Source: Planctomycetota bacterium
GTDB lineage: Bacteria > Planctomycetota > Phycisphaerae > Sedimentisphaerales > Anaerobacaceae
Length of the DNA: 64,000 nt
Direction: 5' to 3'
Assembly (NCBI GenBank): GCA_013349615.1
Contig: DUZJ01000004.1
Span: 1-64,000, forward strand
Shown: piece after piece, positions 6,827 to 51,109 of the stretch
Numbering within the stretch: the stretch's first letter is position 1
Layout: each line of letters begins with the position of its first letter
Made by a program: the position numbers and the translations under genes
The notes under the pieces: model-generated
Databases searched by the model: none
What the model saw: the letters and a program-made list of their open reading frames with translations, nothing else
Told to the model about the DNA's origin: nothing

Positions 6827-6870
6827 TACCCCGTTAGAAACGTGCCTTCTGTCTTCTAATGGGGCGTTAA
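6827..6870. repeat. CCCCGTTAGAAA inverted-repeat mini-element (copy 1)
   Basis: The left arm ACCCCGTTAGAAA and right arm CTTCTAATGGGGC pair with few mismatches around a loop of about 15 nt. The same arms occur at 34249-34313, 50544-50610 and, diverged, 30362-30402. Confidence 0.6.
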
Positions 6871-32836: not shown

Positions 32837-34243
32837 CTAATCGAGGACAATCTGGTCCTGATATTGGGGGACGGAGACCTTCCAGCCGGTTTGCTTTCTG
32901 ACGTAGTTGCCAAAACTGTGTGCGCTTTCGGTCTCACCGTGTACGACGAACACGCCCCTTGGAGGGGCATCCAGCTCCTTTAGCCAATCGAGCAGCTCGT
33001 TTCTGTCGGCGTGTGCGGAAAAGCCGTGTATCCGGACTATTCTTGCCTTAATGGCGCGTTTCTCACCAAGTATCCGGACTTTTTTGATGCCATTGACAAT
33101 CGACCTGCCGAGTGTTCCGACTGCCTGATAGCCGACGAACATTATCGTGTTGTTCGCACGCGAGATGTTGTTGACGAGGTGAAACTTGACTCTGCCGCCG
33201 GTGCACATTCCGGAGCCGGCTATGACCATAACGGTCCCTTTTATACCGTTGATTGCCTTTGATTCGTTAGCGGTGCCTGCCATTTGCAGTCCCGGCAGGT
33301 CAAAAGGTGACTTATGTCGTTTGATAAATTCGGTCATCTCTTTATCAAACAATTCCGGGTGATGCTGAAAGACCTTCGTAATCCTTGAGGCCATTGGGCT
33401 GTCTAAAAAAACCTTCAATTCCGGAATCTGATTTTTCAGCCGCAGCTCGTTTATGTAATATAAGACCTCCTGTGAGCGTTCGAGTGCGAAGCTCGGGACG
33501 ATAATGTTGCCGCCGGCTTTTATGGTCGAGTTTATCACTTCACCGATGGATTTTTCTACATCCGCTACTTCCTCATGTACTCTATCGCCGTATGTGGACT
33601 CAATCAGAACATAATCTGCATAGTCGAAAACAGTTGGGTCGCACACGATGGGCCTGTCGGGGCGGCCAATGTCACCGGAGAACAAGATGAGCCTCTCCTG
33701 CCCATCCTGGCGTACCTTTACCCTTATTATCGAAGAGCCGAGGACGTGGCCGGCGTCGTAGAAAGTGGCTTCCACGCCGTCGCCGAGATTTACCGATTCT
33801 CTGTATTCAACATGGGAAAAAAGTGGAAAGCAGGCCTGGGCATCTTCGGTCGTATAAAGCGGGACGTCCGGATAAGGGCCTTTGCGACCTTGCCGTTCGT
33901 GTCTTTTGCGTTTGTGCTCGGCGTCCTCTTCCTGTATTTTAGCTGAATCCAACAATATAATCTTGGCAATTTCAGCAGTGGCGGCAGTACAGTAAATCTT
34001 TCCGCGGAATCCTTCCTTAATGAGCTTCGGCAATAAACCACAATGGTCGAGATGGGCGTGGGTTAGAAGGACGGCATCTATATTTTTTGGTTTTATAGGG
34101 AAGGGGTCCCAGTTTCTTTGGCGGAACTGGCGTTCCTGATAGAGTCCGCAATCTATCAGAACCTGTGTGCCATTGGCTTCGAGGAAGTGCCGAGAACCTG
34201 TAACATTCTGAGCGGCGCCGAGAAACTTTAATTTTATCTGCAT
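32837..34243 (-). CDS. Beta-CASP metallo-beta-lactamase-fold RNA exonuclease
   Basis: The 468-residue protein has the metal site 'THAHLDHCG' (H62, H64, D66, H67), followed by 'DAGHVLGSSIIRV', 'FSGDIGR' and 'IESTYGDR'. Later motifs 'ILDSPMA'-like 'FLDSPMASRIT', 'MVIAGSGMCTGGRVKFHL' and 'IHGFSAHADRNELLDWL' mark the beta-CASP and RNA-specificity parts. Such enzymes process or degrade RNA. It converges with tatC. A CCCCGTTAGAAA mini-element begins six bases upstream of its start codon. Confidence 0.9.
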   Translation of the reverse strand: MQIKLKFLGAAQNVTGSRHFLEANGTQVLIDCGLYQERQFRQRNWDPFPIKPKNIDAVLLTHAHLDHCGLLPKLIKEGFRGKIYCTAATAEIAKIILLDSAKIQEEDAEHKRKRHERQGRKGPYPDVPLYTTEDAQACFPLFSHVEYRESVNLGDGVEATFYDAGHVLGSSIIRVKVRQDGQERLILFSGDIGRPDRPIVCDPTVFDYADYVLIESTYGDRVHEEVADVEKSIGEVINSTIKAGGNIIVPSFALERSQEVLYYINELRLKNQIPELKVFLDSPMASRITKVFQHHPELFDKEMTEFIKRHKSPFDLPGLQMAGTANESKAINGIKGTVMVIAGSGMCTGGRVKFHLVNNISRANNTIMFVGYQAVGTLGRSIVNGIKKVRILGEKRAIKARIVRIHGFSAHADRNELLDWLKELDAPPRGVFVVHGETESAHSFGNYVRKQTGWKVSVPQYQDQIVLD

Positions 34244-34248
34244 ACTTG

Positions 34249-34313
34249 CCCCGTTAGAAATATTCCTTTTTGTACCTATGTTCTTATTATCCCCGCCGGA
34301 CTTTCTAACGGGG
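34249..34313. repeat. CCCCGTTAGAAA inverted-repeat mini-element (copy 2)
   Basis: The 65-bp copy has arms CCCCGTTAGAAA and TTTCTAACGGGG, perfect over 12 bp. It lies immediately before the exonuclease gene, where a ribosome-binding site would be expected. Confidence 0.75.
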
Positions 34314-38882: not shown

Positions 38883-39002
38883 TTTGGTTTCTGACATTTC
38901 AAAACGGCTGCTTAAAATTTGGCGGATTTGCAGAAGTGAGAATGTGTAGAAGCTCGTATCGACAAAGAAGACCCAAGGCGCAAGACTCAAGACGAAAGCA
39001 CG

Positions 39003-39034
39003 GAGGACAGAAGACAGACGACGGAAGACAGAAG
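39003..39034. repeat. Short 'GAAGACAGA' minisatellite (copy 1)
   Basis: Units like 'GGACAGAAGACAGACGACGGAAGACAGAAG' make a purine-rich tract. Similar tracts lie at 39501-39535 and inside addA at 49942-49978. Confidence 0.55.
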
Positions 39035-39500: not shown

Positions 39501-39535
39501 CGACGGACGACAGAAGACAGACGCCAGAAGACGGA
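39501..39535. repeat. Short 'GAAGACAGA' minisatellite (copy 2)
   Basis: A tract of 'GACGGACGACAGAAGACAGACGCC' type follows the small membrane protein gene. It matches the tracts at 39003 and within addA. Confidence 0.5.
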
Positions 39536-40177: not shown

Positions 40178-40200
40178 CTCCTTCGACCGCGCTCAGGACA
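40178..40200. repeat. 'CCTGTCCTGAGC' repeat (minus-strand copy)
   Basis: The reverse complement reads TGTCCTGAGCGCGGTCGAAG, the same short unit found at 301-320, 50498-50520 (inside addA) and 51011-51034. Confidence 0.6.
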
Positions 40201-43539: not shown

Positions 43540-46500
43540 ATGTCAGTTCAATTTATTCTTGGCAGAAGCGGCACGGGCAAGACGAGCTTTTGTATAAAAG
43601 CGATTGTCAATGCCTTGCTTAAAGCCGCCGGCGCGCAGCCGTTGATTCTGTTAGTTCCGGAGCAGGCGACCTATCAGGCTGAGCGTGCCATCCTGGCCGA
43701 CAAGAGGATAGCCGGCTACAACAGGCTTCAGGTGCTTTCGTTTGACCGTCTGCAGTTTTTGTTGTCAGGTAAAAATACAGCGAGGCCGGCCCTTTCGCGC
43801 ATCGGCAGACAAATGATGGTCCACCGGATTTTGCGGGATAATAAAAGTAAATTGAAGGTCTTCGGCTCGTCGGCGACCTTGCCCGGCTTGGGTCGGCAGA
43901 CGGCACAGACTATTGCCGAGCTGCACCAGTATGCAAAGACGCCCGACGATATTGACGAGTTGCTGAGCGAATTAAAGAAGGACGAACGCAACAATTTAGC
44001 TGCATTGAAATTTGCCGATATCGGCCTGATTCTAAGAGAATATCTGGAGTTTATCGAGGGTAAGTTTATTGATCCTGATATTCAGTTGGCTCGTTCGTGC
44101 AAGGCGGTGGGGACAGCGGCTTTTGTTAAGGGCGCAAAATTATGGGTTGATGGTTTTGCCGGTTTTACAACGGCCGAAATTGCAATCTTAACTGAGCTGC
44201 TGAAGGCGGTCACAGATGCACAAATTGCACTTTGTCTGGACCCATCGAATATAGATTTGGCGAATCCCGATGCCGGCGGACTTGACCCGGTTGGCATATT
44301 CGGCCCGACTGAACGAACGTATGCTGAGCTTGTCGAAACAATAAAAAAATGCAAACTTCGATTGGACGAGCCGATAATTCTTGATGAGGCGGTCAGATTC
44401 TCTTCGTGTCGGCCGCTCGCTCATATCGAGCGAAATATGTTCGTGCTGGAACCGGCCAGGATACCCGCGTCGGATAATATTCGCGTCATATCGGCGCCAA
44501 ATGCCCGGGCTGAAATCCGGTTTGTTGCAAGGCAGATACTCCGATTGGTCAAGGAAACCGATTTCCGATACCGTGACATTGCGGTTATTGCATCAGATAT
44601 CGACCGCTATGAACACTATATACGGGCGTATTTTGATGACTATGGCGTGCCGTTTTTTATTGATAAGCGAAAATCATTGAACCAGCATCCGATGGTTCAG
44701 CTTATCAGCTCGGTGCTGCAGGTTGTGACGGGCGGCTTTTCTAACAGTGATATTTTCACATATCTTAAAACGGACCTTGTGCCAATAGAGCGAAGTGATA
44801 TAGACGTACTGGAAAATTACTGTCTTGCGTATGGAGTAAATGCCGGCGACTGGCAAAGCGGGCAAGTGTGGCATTTTGCCGGTGACGGTAATTATGACGA
44901 GCAGCGGATAAACGAAATCCGGCAAAAGGCCATTGGGCCGTTGCTTGAGCTTCGAGACAGGCTCCGTCCGGGTGGCAATGCGGTAAATAAGATGAGCGCA
45001 GATGAGTTTGTGCGGGCTGTTTCTGATTTTCTCAGGGTACTGAAGGTCAGGCAAACAATCAGGGATTGGATTAAAGAAGCTGAGAAAAGCAAAGATGAAA
45101 CAGGTGCCAATGTTCATCGGCAGCTTTACGGTAAGCTCGTGGATATATTTGACGAGCTTGTCGAGGTCTTTGCCGGACGCCGGATGAGCTGTGAGGATTA
45201 TGTTGCGATTCTGGATTCTGCGTTTTCGCAGTTGACGTTAGCTTTCATTCCGCCGACACTGGACCAGGTCCTTGTGGGCTCTATTGAGCGCAGCCGACAC
45301 CCGGATTTGAAAGCGGTTTTTCTAATAGGCGCGACGCAAAGACAGTTTCCCGTGCCGGTACGTTCGGACAGCATATTGACCGATGATGACCGCAGGGCAG
45401 CCGACGAGGCCAAATTTACGCTGGCGGCAACAGAAACTCAGAAGCTTGCCGAGCGCCAATACCTGGCTTACATCGCATTTACACGTCCATCAGAATTTCT
45501 GTGTGTTACATACCCTGTTACTGATGATAGCGGCGGTGCCGTGCCTCGCTCCCAATTTATAGACAATCTTGAATCGTTGTTTGAAAATCTGAAAGAAGAG
45601 TCAATTGCGGCCGAACAGATTGCGATTGAAGAGGTTCACAATAAGAGCGAACTGGCCGATTTGCTTTGCAGCTCGCTTGGCAAAGATAGGGCTCGATACT
45701 CGCTTGAAGTTTCTAACGAGCAGTTTAGTGGATTATTGGATGATATGTGCGCCGATGAGGAACTTGCTGAGGCAGGTGCGAATGTGCTGTCAGCGGTAAA
45801 TTATGAGAATCGTGCGGAGCTGGATAAAGAGGTAGTTGAGAAGCTCTTTGGTGAGCGGATAGGCAGCTCTGCAACAAGACTGGGCACTTTTGCTGCGTGT
45901 CCGTATCAGTATTTCGCCCGCTATGTGCTGAAATTGAAAGAGCGAGACGAGTTTAAACTTGAGCCGCTGGACTTGGGCAATTTTTATCATCGAGTTCTGG
46001 ATGCACTGCTGAAGAAACTTGGCGAAGAAAAAAAAGATTTTGCGACGGTTGAGAACGAGGAGTTATTGGGGCTTCTGAGCGAACAGATAACGAGAATTAT
46101 TCAGACGGACTCGTTTATATCCAACTTTGCTCGTCGCAGTGGTCATAACCTGTTTATCATCAATTCCGCCGCTGAGGTTCTCGAGGATTGCGTTCGTGCT
46201 ATAGGGCAAATGGTACGTGCAGGCAGCTTCAGACCTGCGCTGTCCGAAGTTTCGTTCGGCCAGGTACGGCAAGCAAAGGATACGCTTGACGAATATGAGC
46301 TTTCGCTTGCAGGTGGTCGCCTGTTGTCTTTGAACGGCAAGGTTGACCGAATTGATATTGCGGAACTGGACGGCAAAAAATTTGCGGCCGTTTTCGACTA
46401 TAAGCGTCGAGGCGCATCCTTTAGCTGGTCAAAGTTTTACTATGGTCTGGATATGCAGCTTCCGATTTATATGCTCGCCGTCAAGAATGCAGACAAGCCG

Positions 46501-46983
46501 AAGGTAGAAAGTGTTGTTGGTGCGTTTTATATGCCGGTGGAAACGGGAATTGAACAGGCTGCTCTCGATGAATTATCAGCCAAAGCGGGAAAATTTGATT
46601 ATAAGGCAAAGGGAATATTGAATGGTGAATTTTTCCAGCAGCTTGACTCTTCTGCCACTTCCGGCTGGGACAAATTTTATAATTTCCGTATCAGCTCAAA
46701 AGATGGTCAGTATGGCGACTACGGCAGAAGTGGAGCATTGAAGCCGGGTGATTTCGAGAAAGTTCTTGAGTTTACCGAGAAAAAAATAGTTGAGATGGCA
46801 AAAGAGATTCTCGCAGGCAGGATTGATATCAGGCCGTATAGACTTGGCACGGTGTCCCCGTGCAGCTACTGCAAATACAAGCCGGTTTGCCGATTCGATT
46901 GGCAGGTAAATGATTATAACGTCCTGGCGCCGCTTAAAAAGGTGCAGGTTCTCGAAGAGATGAAGAAGGCTGATGGCCGATAA
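43540..46983 (+). CDS. addB: ATP-dependent nuclease subunit AddB
   Basis: AddAB resects double-strand breaks to start recombination. The 1147-residue AddB opens with the P-loop 'LGRSGTGKTSFC' (~7-18). It has helicase-like parts through ~700 ('RSRHPDLKAVFLIGATQRQFPVPV') and ends in a PD-(D/E)XK nuclease domain: 'GNFYHRVLDALLKKL', 'GKVDRIDIAEL' and 'AVFDYKRRG'. Four cysteines (C787 in 'FAACPYQYFARY' and C1108, C1111, C1117 in 'CSYCKYKPVC') match the Fe-S site of AddB. It overlaps addA by 11 bases, so the two are co-translated. Confidence 0.95.
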   Translation: MSVQFILGRSGTGKTSFCIKAIVNALLKAAGAQPLILLVPEQATYQAERAILADKRIAGYNRLQVLSFDRLQFLLSGKNTARPALSRIGRQMMVHRILRDNKSKLKVFGSSATLPGLGRQTAQTIAELHQYAKTPDDIDELLSELKKDERNNLAALKFADIGLILREYLEFIEGKFIDPDIQLARSCKAVGTAAFVKGAKLWVDGFAGFTTAEIAILTELLKAVTDAQIALCLDPSNIDLANPDAGGLDPVGIFGPTERTYAELVETIKKCKLRLDEPIILDEAVRFSSCRPLAHIERNMFVLEPARIPASDNIRVISAPNARAEIRFVARQILRLVKETDFRYRDIAVIASDIDRYEHYIRAYFDDYGVPFFIDKRKSLNQHPMVQLISSVLQVVTGGFSNSDIFTYLKTDLVPIERSDIDVLENYCLAYGVNAGDWQSGQVWHFAGDGNYDEQRINEIRQKAIGPLLELRDRLRPGGNAVNKMSADEFVRAVSDFLRVLKVRQTIRDWIKEAEKSKDETGANVHRQLYGKLVDIFDELVEVFAGRRMSCEDYVAILDSAFSQLTLAFIPPTLDQVLVGSIERSRHPDLKAVFLIGATQRQFPVPVRSDSILTDDDRRAADEAKFTLAATETQKLAERQYLAYIAFTRPSEFLCVTYPVTDDSGGAVPRSQFIDNLESLFENLKEESIAAEQIAIEEVHNKSELADLLCSSLGKDRARYSLEVSNEQFSGLLDDMCADEELAEAGANVLSAVNYENRAELDKEVVEKLFGERIGSSATRLGTFAACPYQYFARYVLKLKERDEFKLEPLDLGNFYHRVLDALLKKLGEEKKDFATVENEELLGLLSEQITRIIQTDSFISNFARRSGHNLFIINSAAEVLEDCVRAIGQMVRAGSFRPALSEVSFGQVRQAKDTLDEYELSLAGGRLLSLNGKVDRIDIAELDGKKFAAVFDYKRRGASFSWSKFYYGLDMQLPIYMLAVKNADKPKVESVVGAFYMPVETGIEQAALDELSAKAGKFDYKAKGILNGEFFQQLDSSATSGWDKFYNFRISSKDGQYGDYGRSGALKPGDFEKVLEFTEKKIVEMAKEILAGRIDIRPYRLGTVSPCSYCKYKPVCRFDWQVNDYNVLAPLKKVQVLEEMKKADGR

Positions 46984-49900
46984 GAAGATAAAATGGACTA
47001 AGCAGCAGAAACGGGCGATTACCGCACGGGGAAGTGACGTTCTGGTGACCGCCTCAGCGGGGACCGGAAAGACGGCGGTATTGTCCGGTCGCTGCGTCGA
47101 TATCGTACGTGACAAAACCCTATGTCCTGACGTTTTCAGTATGCTTGTGTTGACCTTTACGGAGATGGCCGCCGAGCAAATGCGATGGCGGATTGCCGAG
47201 CAGCTTCGGGCTGCGTTCCTGGAAAGCAGGGACACTCATCTTCGCCGCCAGCTTATATTGCTGCAAGGTGCTGATGTCAGTACGATACATTCGTTTTGCA
47301 AACGGCTTATCACTGAGTATTTCTACAAGCTCACCCTTGACCCGACTTTTAGGGTAATCGACGCCGACGAAGCGAGATTACTCAAGGCAGAGGTGTTGGA
47401 AAAGACAATCGACTGGGCGTGGGAGCAGAGCAACTTAATACCGGCCCTTCAGCAGCTTTTGTCGCGGCGCGACCTTCGCACAAATGATGGTTTTCTCACA
47501 AGGGTAATCGAGTTGAGCAATTTTCTGGATGGTGTTGTTTCACGAGAAAACTGGTACGAGCGAGCGACACGGCTTGCAGAGGCGGCCAATCCATTCACGA
47601 CCGAGCTGGGTGAGAAACAAAAGCAGATTATTGGTGAGAAATTTCAATACATTCTTAATCAGCTTCGGTATGCCGGGAATTTATATCGGAATGAAAATCC
47701 TGATGGTGACTGGGGCCCAGAGTGTGAAGATACTTTTATAAAGCCCGTTCTACAATGTGTTGAGCTTTTGAAAGCAGGCGATTGGGACAGGTGCGCAGAG
47801 AAAATAAGAAACTTTGAAAAGCCCACGGTAAGAAAGCCCAAAGGACCGGCGGCAGCGACTGCTGAGCTTATACAAAAAACAGTAAAAAAGGCAGTAGATT
47901 CCTTTGAGAGACTTTCGGAGCTTGCGGTAGTGAATCCTGAGTATCTGGACAGGGTCGGCAGGGCGGCAAGCCTGCAGACGAAGGTGCTCATCGAGCTTGT
48001 TAAAAAATTCGACCGGTTATACAGTGACGCCAAACGAGCGGTGAGCTGCCTCGATTTTGCCGACCTCGAACATTATGCTCTAAAACTGCTGTCCGAACAG
48101 GATTCTTCAGAGGAAAAGCTGGCGCCATCCGAAACGGCCCTGGCGCTTCGGCGCAGGTTCAAATACATATTTGTCGATGAATATCAGGACATTAATCCCG
48201 TCCAGCAGGCGATACTCGATTTGCTTAGCTCCGGCGGAAATGTCTTTGTTGTCGGCGATGTCAAACAAAGTATTTACGCCTGGCGGGGGGCCGAACCGGA
48301 GATTTTTATCAGGCGTCTTGGCCCTGCATCGGTCGATTCAGCGAAAACACCAAACGGATTGCGGGTCGACCTGAATGCCAATTTCCGCTCGGCTAAAAGT
48401 ATTCTCGATTTTGTCAACACAATATTTGGACGCATAATGACCACATCCTTTGCGAAGATTGATTACGATGACTCTGCAAAATTGACACCTGCAATTGAAG
48501 ACGAAACCAAATCACAAGCGCCGGGTGACAGCAGACCGGTGGTTGAATTCCACATCCTCGATGAAATAGAGCCGGACAAGGATTCGGAAAAAGAGCAGAG
48601 CAGCCAAATAGCTGGCGGGGAAGAAATAAATATTATCAGTTCCCGGCAGCGTCAGGCGGCGATGATTGCCGAGCGTATCAGGCAAATGGTCGGGGCCGAA
48701 ACCGGGAGCCCGGAATTTCAAATATATGATAAGCGGCGGCAGTGCCTGCGTGACGTTGAATATCGTGACATTGTGGTATTGATGCGCTCACTGGCCAAAA
48801 AGGCCAATGATTATGTGGAGGTGTTTCAGTTGGCCGGTGTGCCTGTGAGCTGTCAGGCTACGGCGGGCTATTTCGAAGCAACTGAAATTACCGATATGTT
48901 GAGTTTGCTCAAGGTCCTGGATAATCCTCAGCGCGATATAGAATTGGCTGCTGTGCTGCGGAGCCCGTTCTTCAGGATTAGTGATACTGAATTGGCGGCG
49001 CTCAAAATCCACACTGAAAAAGGTGAGAATAGCAGAAACTTTTATAGTTGTGTGGTTCAATACTGTAATAGTGAGCAGGATACGGAGCTGGTAAAGAAGC
49101 TCAAGGGGATACTAACTTTGATTGAGCAGTGGCGGACACTTGCCCGGCGGGGCAATTTAGCGGATTTGCTCTGGCATATCTATCGTCAAACCGGCTTTCT
49201 GTCATTTGTTTCCGCTTTGCCGAATGGCCGGACGCGAAGGGCCAATCTTCTTAAACTGCACGACAGGGCAATACAGTTTGAGGGTTTTGCCAGCAGTGCC
49301 GGAGGCGTTTCACTTACGCGCTTTGTTGAGTTTATCGAGAAGCTTCAGGAAGTGGGCCAGGATTGGGCGCCTGCTGAGCCGGAAGCCGCGGCCGGTAATG
49401 CCGTCCGCATCTTAAGCGTGCATAAGAGCAAAGGACTCGAATTCCCGGTCGTCTTTTTGGCTGAGCTGAGTAGTAAGTTTAATAAACAGGACGTTTACGC
49501 GGACTGCCTTGCCGACGATGATAATACGGTAGGGCTGCAAATAATCGACCGCGAGTCGAATAGCAGGCTGCGTTCGCTTGCATACCAGGTCATCGCCGAG
49601 CAGAAACTTTCGCAGTCCCTGGCCGAAGAGATGCGTATCCTTTACGTCGCAACCACGCGGGCAAGGCAGCGCCTTGTCCTGACCGCCTGCGGGAAGAAAA
49701 AGCATTGCCGCGATATTGTCCGCAGCGGATTTTATTTTGGCGCCGAGCCTATTGCCGATTGGCAGCTTCGCCGGTGCCGCAGTCCCCTTGAATGGATTCT
49801 CTATGGTCTTTCCGACCGGAGAAACTTACATAATGTTTTTGAAACCGGCTTGTCGGAACAGGCGATTGACGATGATTTATTCAGCCTGAAACTGTACAGC

Positions 49901-50851
49901 CAGGCCGAACTACAACGACTCTCCGAGTTTGTCGTCAGATTAACAGAAAACAGAAGACAGAAGACAGAAGACAGAAGTAGGGGCGGTTCGCGAACCGCCC
50001 TCGATCCTGCGGCCGGGGGCAAAAGACTTGCACAGCTAAAGAAGTCGTTTGCCTGGCGGTATGCATTCGGCGATGCGCCGGTACTTGCCGCCAAACAATC
50101 GGTAACGGAGTTGACACATCACAGTGATGAACACACAAGAATCGATTATTCAAGGGTGTTGGAACGTGAGCCAATCGCGGCTGCTGAAACTGGTTTGGCT
50201 GGACCTGTGGAAGGCCGACTAATCGGCACGGCTGCGCACCTTGTAATCGCCCACCTTGATTTGAGTAAGGTGATAAACAAAGGAGCAATCGAAAAGACGA
50301 AGGAAAAACTTTTGGCTGATGGAGCTATAACCGAAGCCGTCGCCGGGCATATCGACACAGATTCGATAATGGGTTTTTTTGAAAGCAAACTGGGCCGGAT
50401 GGCCCTTGCTCGTGAGAATACTCTTTGGCGTGAATGGCCGTTCACCTTCGCTCTGCCTGTTGTGGCACGGGCTTCCAGCCCGTGGTCCACGGCCAGGCCT
50501 GTCCCGAGCGAAGTCGAGGGGATGGCCACGCCACTATCGACGAGCCCCGTTAGAAATCCTACAATGAGAACAGACAATATGATGGAAAAGGGAAAAATTT
50601 CTAACGGGGCGAGCGACGAAACTATTATCGTTCAGGGCATAATCGATATGTTGGTTCAAACACCAAAGGGCCTGCTTGTAATAGATTTCAAGACCGACCG
50701 GATAACTATCGACGAAGTTTCAGAGCGTGCCGAGCTTTATCGTCGGCAGTTGGAGCTTTACGGCAGGGCGGCAGGTGCTATCTTGAAGGAAAAACTCCTC
50801 GCCAAATGGCTGTATTTCCTGACACCGGCCACCGGGTTTGAGTTCAAATGA
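46973..50851 (+). CDS. addA: ATP-dependent helicase/nuclease subunit AddA with in-frame repeat inserts
   Basis: AddA is the helicase-nuclease partner of AddB. The 1292-residue protein has the UvrD-type motifs 'VTASAGTGKTAVLSGR' (~23), 'STIHSFCKRLI', 'FVDEYQDINPVQQAIL', 'VGDVKQSIYAWRGAEPEIF', 'VHKSKGLEFPVVFL' and 'EEMRILYVATTRARQRLVLTA'. The nuclease domain has 'GTAAHLVIAHLDL' (~1085) and 'VQGIIDMLV...LLVIDFKTDR' (~1220-1240). Three stretches (about residues 990-1010, 1164-1185 and 1191-1213) are translated copies of repeats found between genes elsewhere in this window. All keep the frame open and fall in linkers, not in motifs, so the protein is probably still functional. Confidence 0.93.
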   Translation: MADKKIKWTKQQKRAITARGSDVLVTASAGTGKTAVLSGRCVDIVRDKTLCPDVFSMLVLTFTEMAAEQMRWRIAEQLRAAFLESRDTHLRRQLILLQGADVSTIHSFCKRLITEYFYKLTLDPTFRVIDADEARLLKAEVLEKTIDWAWEQSNLIPALQQLLSRRDLRTNDGFLTRVIELSNFLDGVVSRENWYERATRLAEAANPFTTELGEKQKQIIGEKFQYILNQLRYAGNLYRNENPDGDWGPECEDTFIKPVLQCVELLKAGDWDRCAEKIRNFEKPTVRKPKGPAAATAELIQKTVKKAVDSFERLSELAVVNPEYLDRVGRAASLQTKVLIELVKKFDRLYSDAKRAVSCLDFADLEHYALKLLSEQDSSEEKLAPSETALALRRRFKYIFVDEYQDINPVQQAILDLLSSGGNVFVVGDVKQSIYAWRGAEPEIFIRRLGPASVDSAKTPNGLRVDLNANFRSAKSILDFVNTIFGRIMTTSFAKIDYDDSAKLTPAIEDETKSQAPGDSRPVVEFHILDEIEPDKDSEKEQSSQIAGGEEINIISSRQRQAAMIAERIRQMVGAETGSPEFQIYDKRRQCLRDVEYRDIVVLMRSLAKKANDYVEVFQLAGVPVSCQATAGYFEATEITDMLSLLKVLDNPQRDIELAAVLRSPFFRISDTELAALKIHTEKGENSRNFYSCVVQYCNSEQDTELVKKLKGILTLIEQWRTLARRGNLADLLWHIYRQTGFLSFVSALPNGRTRRANLLKLHDRAIQFEGFASSAGGVSLTRFVEFIEKLQEVGQDWAPAEPEAAAGNAVRILSVHKSKGLEFPVVFLAELSSKFNKQDVYADCLADDDNTVGLQIIDRESNSRLRSLAYQVIAEQKLSQSLAEEMRILYVATTRARQRLVLTACGKKKHCRDIVRSGFYFGAEPIADWQLRRCRSPLEWILYGLSDRRNLHNVFETGLSEQAIDDDLFSLKLYSQAELQRLSEFVVRLTENRRQKTEDRSRGGSRTALDPAAGGKRLAQLKKSFAWRYAFGDAPVLAAKQSVTELTHHSDEHTRIDYSRVLEREPIAAAETGLAGPVEGRLIGTAAHLVIAHLDLSKVINKGAIEKTKEKLLADGAITEAVAGHIDTDSIMGFFESKLGRMALARENTLWREWPFTFALPVVARASSPWSTARPVPSEVEGMATPLSTSPVRNPTMRTDNMMEKGKISNGASDETIIVQGIIDMLVQTPKGLLVIDFKTDRITIDEVSERAELYRRQLELYGRAAGAILKEKLLAKWLYFLTPATGFEFK
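49942..50000. repeat. Repeat insert i in addA: minisatellite plus perfect palindrome
   Basis: A 'GAAGACAGAAGACAGA' tract (49942-49978) is followed by a perfect 20-bp palindrome GGGCGGTTCGCGAACCGCCC (49981-50000). The tract matches intergenic ones at 39003 and 39501. Confidence 0.75.
50463..50525. repeat. Repeat insert ii in addA: hairpin plus 'CCTGTCC(T/C)GAGC' unit
   Basis: CACGGGCT-TCC-AGCCCGTG forms an 8-bp stem (50466-50484). It is followed by the 'CCTGTCCCGAGCGAAGTCGAGGG' unit (50498-50520), which has intergenic copies at 40178, 51011 and 301. Confidence 0.7.
50544..50610. repeat. CCCCGTTAGAAA mini-element inside addA (insert iii)
   Basis: Arms GCCCCGTTAGAAAT and ATTTCTAACGGGGC are perfectly complementary over 14 bp with a ~39-nt centre. 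This is a full copy of the element seen at 34249. It is read in frame as residues ~1191-1213. Confidence 0.85.
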
Positions 50852-50988: not shown

Positions 50989-51109
50989 CTAACCTTTCAT
51001 ACCGAGCGCACCTGTCCTGAGCGGAGTCGAAGGAGTGAAGGCTCTATCATTCGTCGCTCATGTATTGTTGAATTGTCATTCCCGCGGAAGCAGGAAACCA
51101 GATATTTAG

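Follow-up and report, generated by a model that had tools for sequence, protein, structure and literature searches.

The window, by which we mean the whole 64-kb stretch of DNA analysed here, carries addA and its partner gene addB. The addA frame is uninterrupted over 1292 codons, and the three stretches of repeat sequence that the original prediction had placed in addA all lie, as claimed, inside this one frame. The first is found in a linker that we call loop A (DDLF to WRY), and the second and third in loop B of the nuclease domain, between WPFTFALP and VQGIID. AddA was present in every one of the 41 genomes searched, of which 40 were relatives, and 29 of the proteins were aligned. Positions of the features in the window are as follows.

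43540..46983, forward strand: addB, partner subunit, overlapping the start of addA (Pfam ADDB_N and PDDEXK_1)
46973..50851, forward strand: addA, helicase-nuclease subunit A, 1292 aa (Pfam UvrD-helicase, UvrD_C and PDDEXK_1; match to B. subtilis AddA 3u44)
49945..49975, forward strand: insert 1a, 7-bp AGAAGAC tandem tract in loop A; a related tract lies in the same loop of G003
49981..50000, forward strand: insert 1b, perfect 20-bp palindrome GGGCGGTTCGCGAACCGCCC in loop A, translated SRGGSRTAL
50462..50534, forward strand: insert 2, composite hairpin repeat GTGGCACGG...GCCAC in loop B (VARASSPWSTARPVPSEVEGMATP); 49-bp core common to G001 and G004
50464-50484: hairpin within insert 2
50498..50521, forward strand: 24-bp CCTGTCCCGAGCGAAGTCGAGGGG (CTGTCC) unit in insert 2, 8 codons, PVPSEVEG; G001 and G004 are without it
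50541..50544, forward strand: left copy of the 4-bp target duplication CGAG; relatives with the empty site have a single CGAG
50545..50609, forward strand: insert 3, 65-bp mobile element CCCCGTTAGAAA...TTTCTAACGGGG in loop B, translated SPVRNPTMRTDNMMEKGKISNGA, exact 12-bp inverted ends
50610..50613, forward strand: right copy of the 4-bp target duplication CGAG
51012..51032, forward strand: further CTGTCC-GAGC unit, between genes downstream of addA
34249..34313, reverse strand: second copy of the 65-bp element, 5 bp upstream of the ATG of ORF 32837-34243 (reverse strand)
6829..6864, forward strand: 36-bp variant CCCCGTTAGAAACGTGCC...CTAATGGGG, between ORFs, not frame-neutral

Repeats in two loops of AddA

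Insert 3 is a textbook transposition footprint, with inverted ends, a 4-bp duplication and an empty site in relatives. The DNA at the site reads CCACTATCGACGAGCGAAGAAACT in G001 and CCACTATCGACGAG-[65 bp]-CGAGCGACGAAACT in the genome studied here (G000), a net insertion of 69 bp, or 23 codons, once the CGAG duplication is included. The content of loop B differs from genome to genome and records a stepwise history. It is bare in G003, a member of the same genus with only ASEFRDSSDELIV between WPFTFALP and VQGIID; it holds the 49-bp hairpin repeat in G001 and G004, the hairpin, the 24-bp unit and the 65-bp element in G000, and other repeats in G002 and G022. In B. subtilis AddA about 9 residues occupy this position, and the matches to relatives' AddA proteins stop at residues 1163-1176 and restart at 1212. 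The hairpin core of insert 2 also occurs in G001 and G004, two of the four same-genus genomes, and is therefore older than the G000 genome; the 24-bp unit is specific to G000. Hairpin and unit belong to a single composite repeat, which is found whole between genes at L289, L293 and L298. The expectation that relatives would lack residues ~1164-1213 was borne out in G003 and in more distant AddA proteins, the exception being the hairpin core in G001 and G004. Conservation of these residues in distant AddA, which would have refuted the prediction, was not observed.

Insert 1 (49945-50000) has a different character. Among the same-genus genomes compared, loop A measures 60-69 residues with or without repeat matches, and the net gain over repeat-free relatives is only ~4 residues. 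Since the length of the loop barely varies, we interpret insert 1 as a partial replacement of linker sequence; a clean insertion is ruled out by the same lengths. Repeats are present at residues ~990-1010, where an insertion had been predicted, but they add little to the protein. Several different repeats occupy loop A (about residue 995-1013) among same-genus genomes, and because these genomes have different repeats in both loops, we conclude that repeats enter AddA loops in frame. Loops A and B are hot spots of repeat tolerance.

All three stretches had been said to match repeats elsewhere in the window, and this proved correct for the AGAAGAC tract, the CTGTCC unit and the CCCCGTTAGAAA element, but not for the palindrome and the hairpin, which have no second copy there at up to 3 mismatches. 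The tract gives 8 overlapping matches in the 64-kb window against 0.01 expected, with further copies between ORFs at 39002-39032 and 39505-39528; the CCCCGTTAGAAA ends give 6 matches against 0.29 expected, and the CTGTCC unit has a copy at 40181. In the whole of G000 (3.77 Mb, 157 contigs) the repeats are multicopy, with 60 copies of the palindrome, 53 of the CTGTCC unit, about 20 of the hairpin and 96 of the CCCCGTTAGAAA end, against 0-2 for the reversed control. In principle, the loops could be normal, rapidly evolving linkers whose likeness to repeats is due to chance or low complexity, and the near-constant length of loop A partly fits such an origin for insert 1. However, an exact 20-bp palindrome, 12-bp inverted ends, a 4-bp duplication and 60 and 96 genomic sites against 0-2 in the control make coincidence highly improbable, and for inserts 2 and 3 it is refuted by the empty sites in relatives. 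A 36-bp intergenic variant of the element, CCCCGTTAGAAACRTGCCTTCTGTCTTCTAATGGGG, again not frame-neutral, also occurs at L002, L077 and L099 in G000.

The palindrome GGGCGGTTCGCGAACCGCCC is also found in frame in AroA (L270 614-1960, G000:C2), where it adds 7 residues (RGGSRTAR) that are missing from most relatives, and most of the copies sampled sit in long open frames; it may represent a second protein-coding palindrome family. The AroA of G004 has a different insertion at this place.

In an AlphaFold2 model of residues 850-1292, built from 27 homologues, pLDDT falls below 50 in the two repeat loops (residues 1001-1032 and 1171-1213) and is mostly above 90 in the nuclease strands flanking loop B (residues 1150-1162 and 1217-1229); because the model rests on 27 sequences, the low loop confidence partly reflects the small number of homologues. 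In the family alignment, the invariant residues surrounding the PD-(D/E)XK motif are intact. With the strands well modelled and these residues kept, the inserted peptides most likely form surface loops in what would be a working enzyme. Several insertions within one gene might also be expected if addA were decaying, with repeats piling up since AddA is unneeded. We reject this idea, which has hardly any probability, on the grounds that the 1292-codon frame is unbroken, the adjoining addB is intact, the invariant nuclease residues are retained and the same pattern is found in dxs and aroA, which are usually essential. We favor, at a probability of roughly 0.84, the reading that dispersed genome repeats entered two surface loops of AddA that tolerate them and persisted since the frame was preserved, insert 3 being a non-autonomous MITE-like element.

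A family of short mobile elements

Copies of the family to which insert 3 belongs have inverted ends of 12-13 bp and lengths mostly of ~44-77 bp, all below 110 bp. An exact 4-bp target duplication accompanies 134 of 212 copies, and 133 of these 134 duplications conform to YNNR. Near-constant ends enclose a hypervariable core that shows no relation between phyla. The census combines pattern searches with retrieved stretches, and its exact-end searches miss diverged copies. That they undercount is evident from dxs of G000 (L015 437-2533; G000:C6:40101-42197), which contains two in-frame copies, each accompanied by an exact 4-bp duplication and neither present in 11 relatives; the ends of the second copy have diverged (CCCCGTTAGAAG...CTTCTAAAGGGG), and its duplication is CCAG.

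Searched as a pair pattern, the element was found in 20 of 119 genomes (G000 and relatives), with at most 24 perfect copies per genome. When 84,980 species genomes were scanned, the matches listed placed the element in at least seven phyla; they name Planctomycetota, Omnitrophota, Patescibacteria, Nitrospirota, Elusimicrobiota, Desulfobacterota, Nitrospinota and WOR-3. The records listed are all metagenome assemblies, and many of the genomes are draft. The element has no match in Rfam and no copy in the viral contigs searched, and a literature search for its end sequence returned no match, which does not prove the family undescribed.

The end structure and the constant duplication suggest that the element is moved in trans by a DDE-type transposase, and the YNNR target site is presumably reminiscent of IS5-like enzymes. 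No autonomous transposon with element ends was found in the 1.48 Mb of sequence examined, and none of the DDE_Tnp_1 and Y1_Tnp genes retrieved from six high-copy genomes is flanked by element ends. Pairs of inverted ends 600-3500 bp apart were considered as candidates for such a transposon and rejected, as only unrelated genes lie between them.

At one orthologous insertion (L071 1880-4060 and L146) the element is identical in two species with flanks that are 13% different, and the UbiA pair (L061/L130) shows a similar picture. Conversion, recent exchange or constraint could each account for the identity of the L071/L146 pair.

Frame neutrality and host proteins

Because the target duplication adds 4 bp, an element of length 3n+2 is frame-neutral. 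Such lengths are found in 25 of 29 perfect copies in G000, 48 of 59 copies in relatives, 58 of 82 across phyla among the matches listed, and 152 of 212 copies pooled, counts that are not fully independent since copies share descent; after clustering at 80% identity the figure is 100 of 157 (p=1e-14). Lengths differ by lineage but nearly all fall in the 3n+2 class, being mostly 47-53 bp in Omnitrophota, 59-68 bp in Planctomycetota and mostly 71/74 bp in one Elusimicrobiota genome, and Patescibacteria are the weakest case for frame neutrality (10 of 20, among the matches listed). Among copies bordered on one side by at least 150 open codons, selected regardless of whether the frame runs on through the element, 106 of 126 (84%) are frame-neutral, as against 46 of 86 (53%) elsewhere.

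The element is readable as well as frame-neutral. Two of the three frames through its ends are free of stops (PVRN...ISNG and PLEI...FLTG), and the core is stop-depleted, with the PVRN frame open in 125 of 152 copies, where shuffled cores would give 76.7. Of 99 long-frame copies, 83 have a purine-rich coding strand, and as a consequence the peptides are hydrophilic: the reading used is the more hydrophilic one in 71 of 95 copies (mean GRAVY -0.76, versus -0.02 for the other orientation). Insertion occurs at YNNR with a 4-bp duplication, the 3n+2 length bringing the total to a multiple of three. Because the ends are stop-free in two frames and the core is stop-depleted, insertion into a gene would usually add ~15-25 hydrophilic, probably disordered residues and spare the gene.

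A frame-keeping length thus explains why the element often lies inside conserved, even essential, proteins. Hosts of in-frame copies assigned by Pfam are DXS and PrmC (in G000), LipA (in three other genomes), Gfo/Idh, ProB, HypE, ETF, RACo, Tex, TGT and PolA; KdtA and UbiA were assigned by Pfam and sequence context, and Apt, PheT, MurB and MnmA by context only. Some insertions are common to different genera, the frame being kept across flanks that are 76-93% identical. The proposal that proteins evolve here by repeat insertion is accordingly supported well beyond addA, in many conserved proteins and several phyla.

Two related copies lie 3 kb apart at L067 (1955-2013 and 4741-4799) in different genes and different frames, the first in a Gfo/Idh gene in the PVRN frame and the second in another ORF in the PLEI frame. 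The second resembles the Gfo/Idh copy of G042, and on sequence resemblance the pair suggests gene-to-gene transposition. In many prepilin-like genes (L122, L131, L132, L138, L169, L200, L222 and L073 604-1392) the PLEI..FLTG frame directly precedes FTLVELLVV and forms the leader, possibly through repeated targeting or gene duplication.

Has the element been domesticated, its peptide (PVRN..KISNG) or RNA hairpin being selected as a tag, a linker or a translation control? The strong orientation bias (83/99 purine-rich, 71/95 more hydrophilic) would agree with this, but it would also arise if hydrophobic or stop-containing readings are selected against. Copies in UbiA and C43 are conserved above their flanks, and several copies are N-terminal, ahead of pilin, Tat or lipoprotein-type signals; however, at the orthologous LipA, Gfo/Idh and HypE sites the element evolves at the flank rate, the hypervariable cores are unrelated between phyla, and relatives live without the element. 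We consider domestication improbable. Survival accounts best for frame neutrality: frame-shifting copies would be lost and genic copies would seed new ones, a scheme that does not require selection for peptide function, although such selection retains a small probability. We also lean, with somewhat better than even confidence, towards a broader proposal: that the family spread across many phyla by being readable, that lineages independently settled on frame-neutral lengths of 47/50/53, 59/62/65, 68 and 71/74 bp, and that genes are its main habitat and copy source, with disordered loops being steadily added to conserved enzymes.

Relation to known palindromic elements

The family is frame-neutral, cross-phylum, protein-coding and MITE-like. 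It has perfect terminal inverted repeats of 12 bp, a target duplication and many copies without a transposase of their own, which is what defines a MITE apart from a known autonomous partner. With REP/REPIN sequences, which are mobilised by Y1/RAYT, the element shares short palindromes and many copies, and Y1_Tnp genes are present in 6 of 6 high-copy genomes tested. However, it has target duplications, which to our knowledge REPINs do not make, and no retrieved Y1_Tnp gene is flanked by its ends; it thus falls outside REP/REPIN.

Closer in structure are the Correia (107-bp), ERIC, YPAL and QMITE1 MITEs, which are likewise non-autonomous, with inverted ends, target duplications and occasional in-frame fusions (PMC2229807, PMC5896051). 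Unlike the present element they lie mostly between genes, are larger and are each restricted to a single clade, and these two papers contain no report of a frame-neutral length for them.

The closest known kind are the Rickettsia palindromic elements (RPEs; Ogata et al. 2000, 2002), short palindromes that are described as lying between and inside genes, in frame in unrelated conserved proteins (PMC10969869, PMC2229807); the RPE host enzyme Gmk is reported to be made and active (PMC2229807). The likeness lies in this in-frame insertion into unrelated conserved proteins. As described, RPEs are 105-146 bp long and belong to Rickettsia, with the target duplication listed as unknown (PMC2229807), whereas our element is 44-77 bp long, shows a YNNR 4-bp duplication and empty sites, and occurs in at least seven phyla among the matches listed. 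Its lengths are lineage-specific and mostly 3n+2, and its hypervariable core lies between near-constant ends. By these descriptions of RPEs, the element is set apart from them on size and host range.

For annotators, loops of the PVRN..KISNG type can be recognised as transposon-derived, and the transposon origin of new protein loops becomes testable with insertions that are dated, with empty sites and with orthologous pairs. In-frame mobile palindromes were earlier treated as peculiar to Rickettsia and a few others, and in the words of a 2024 review such protein evolution in other prokaryotes was only conceivable (PMC10969869); here the process spans phyla, bears a clear signature of transposition and follows a length rule that matches the reading frame.
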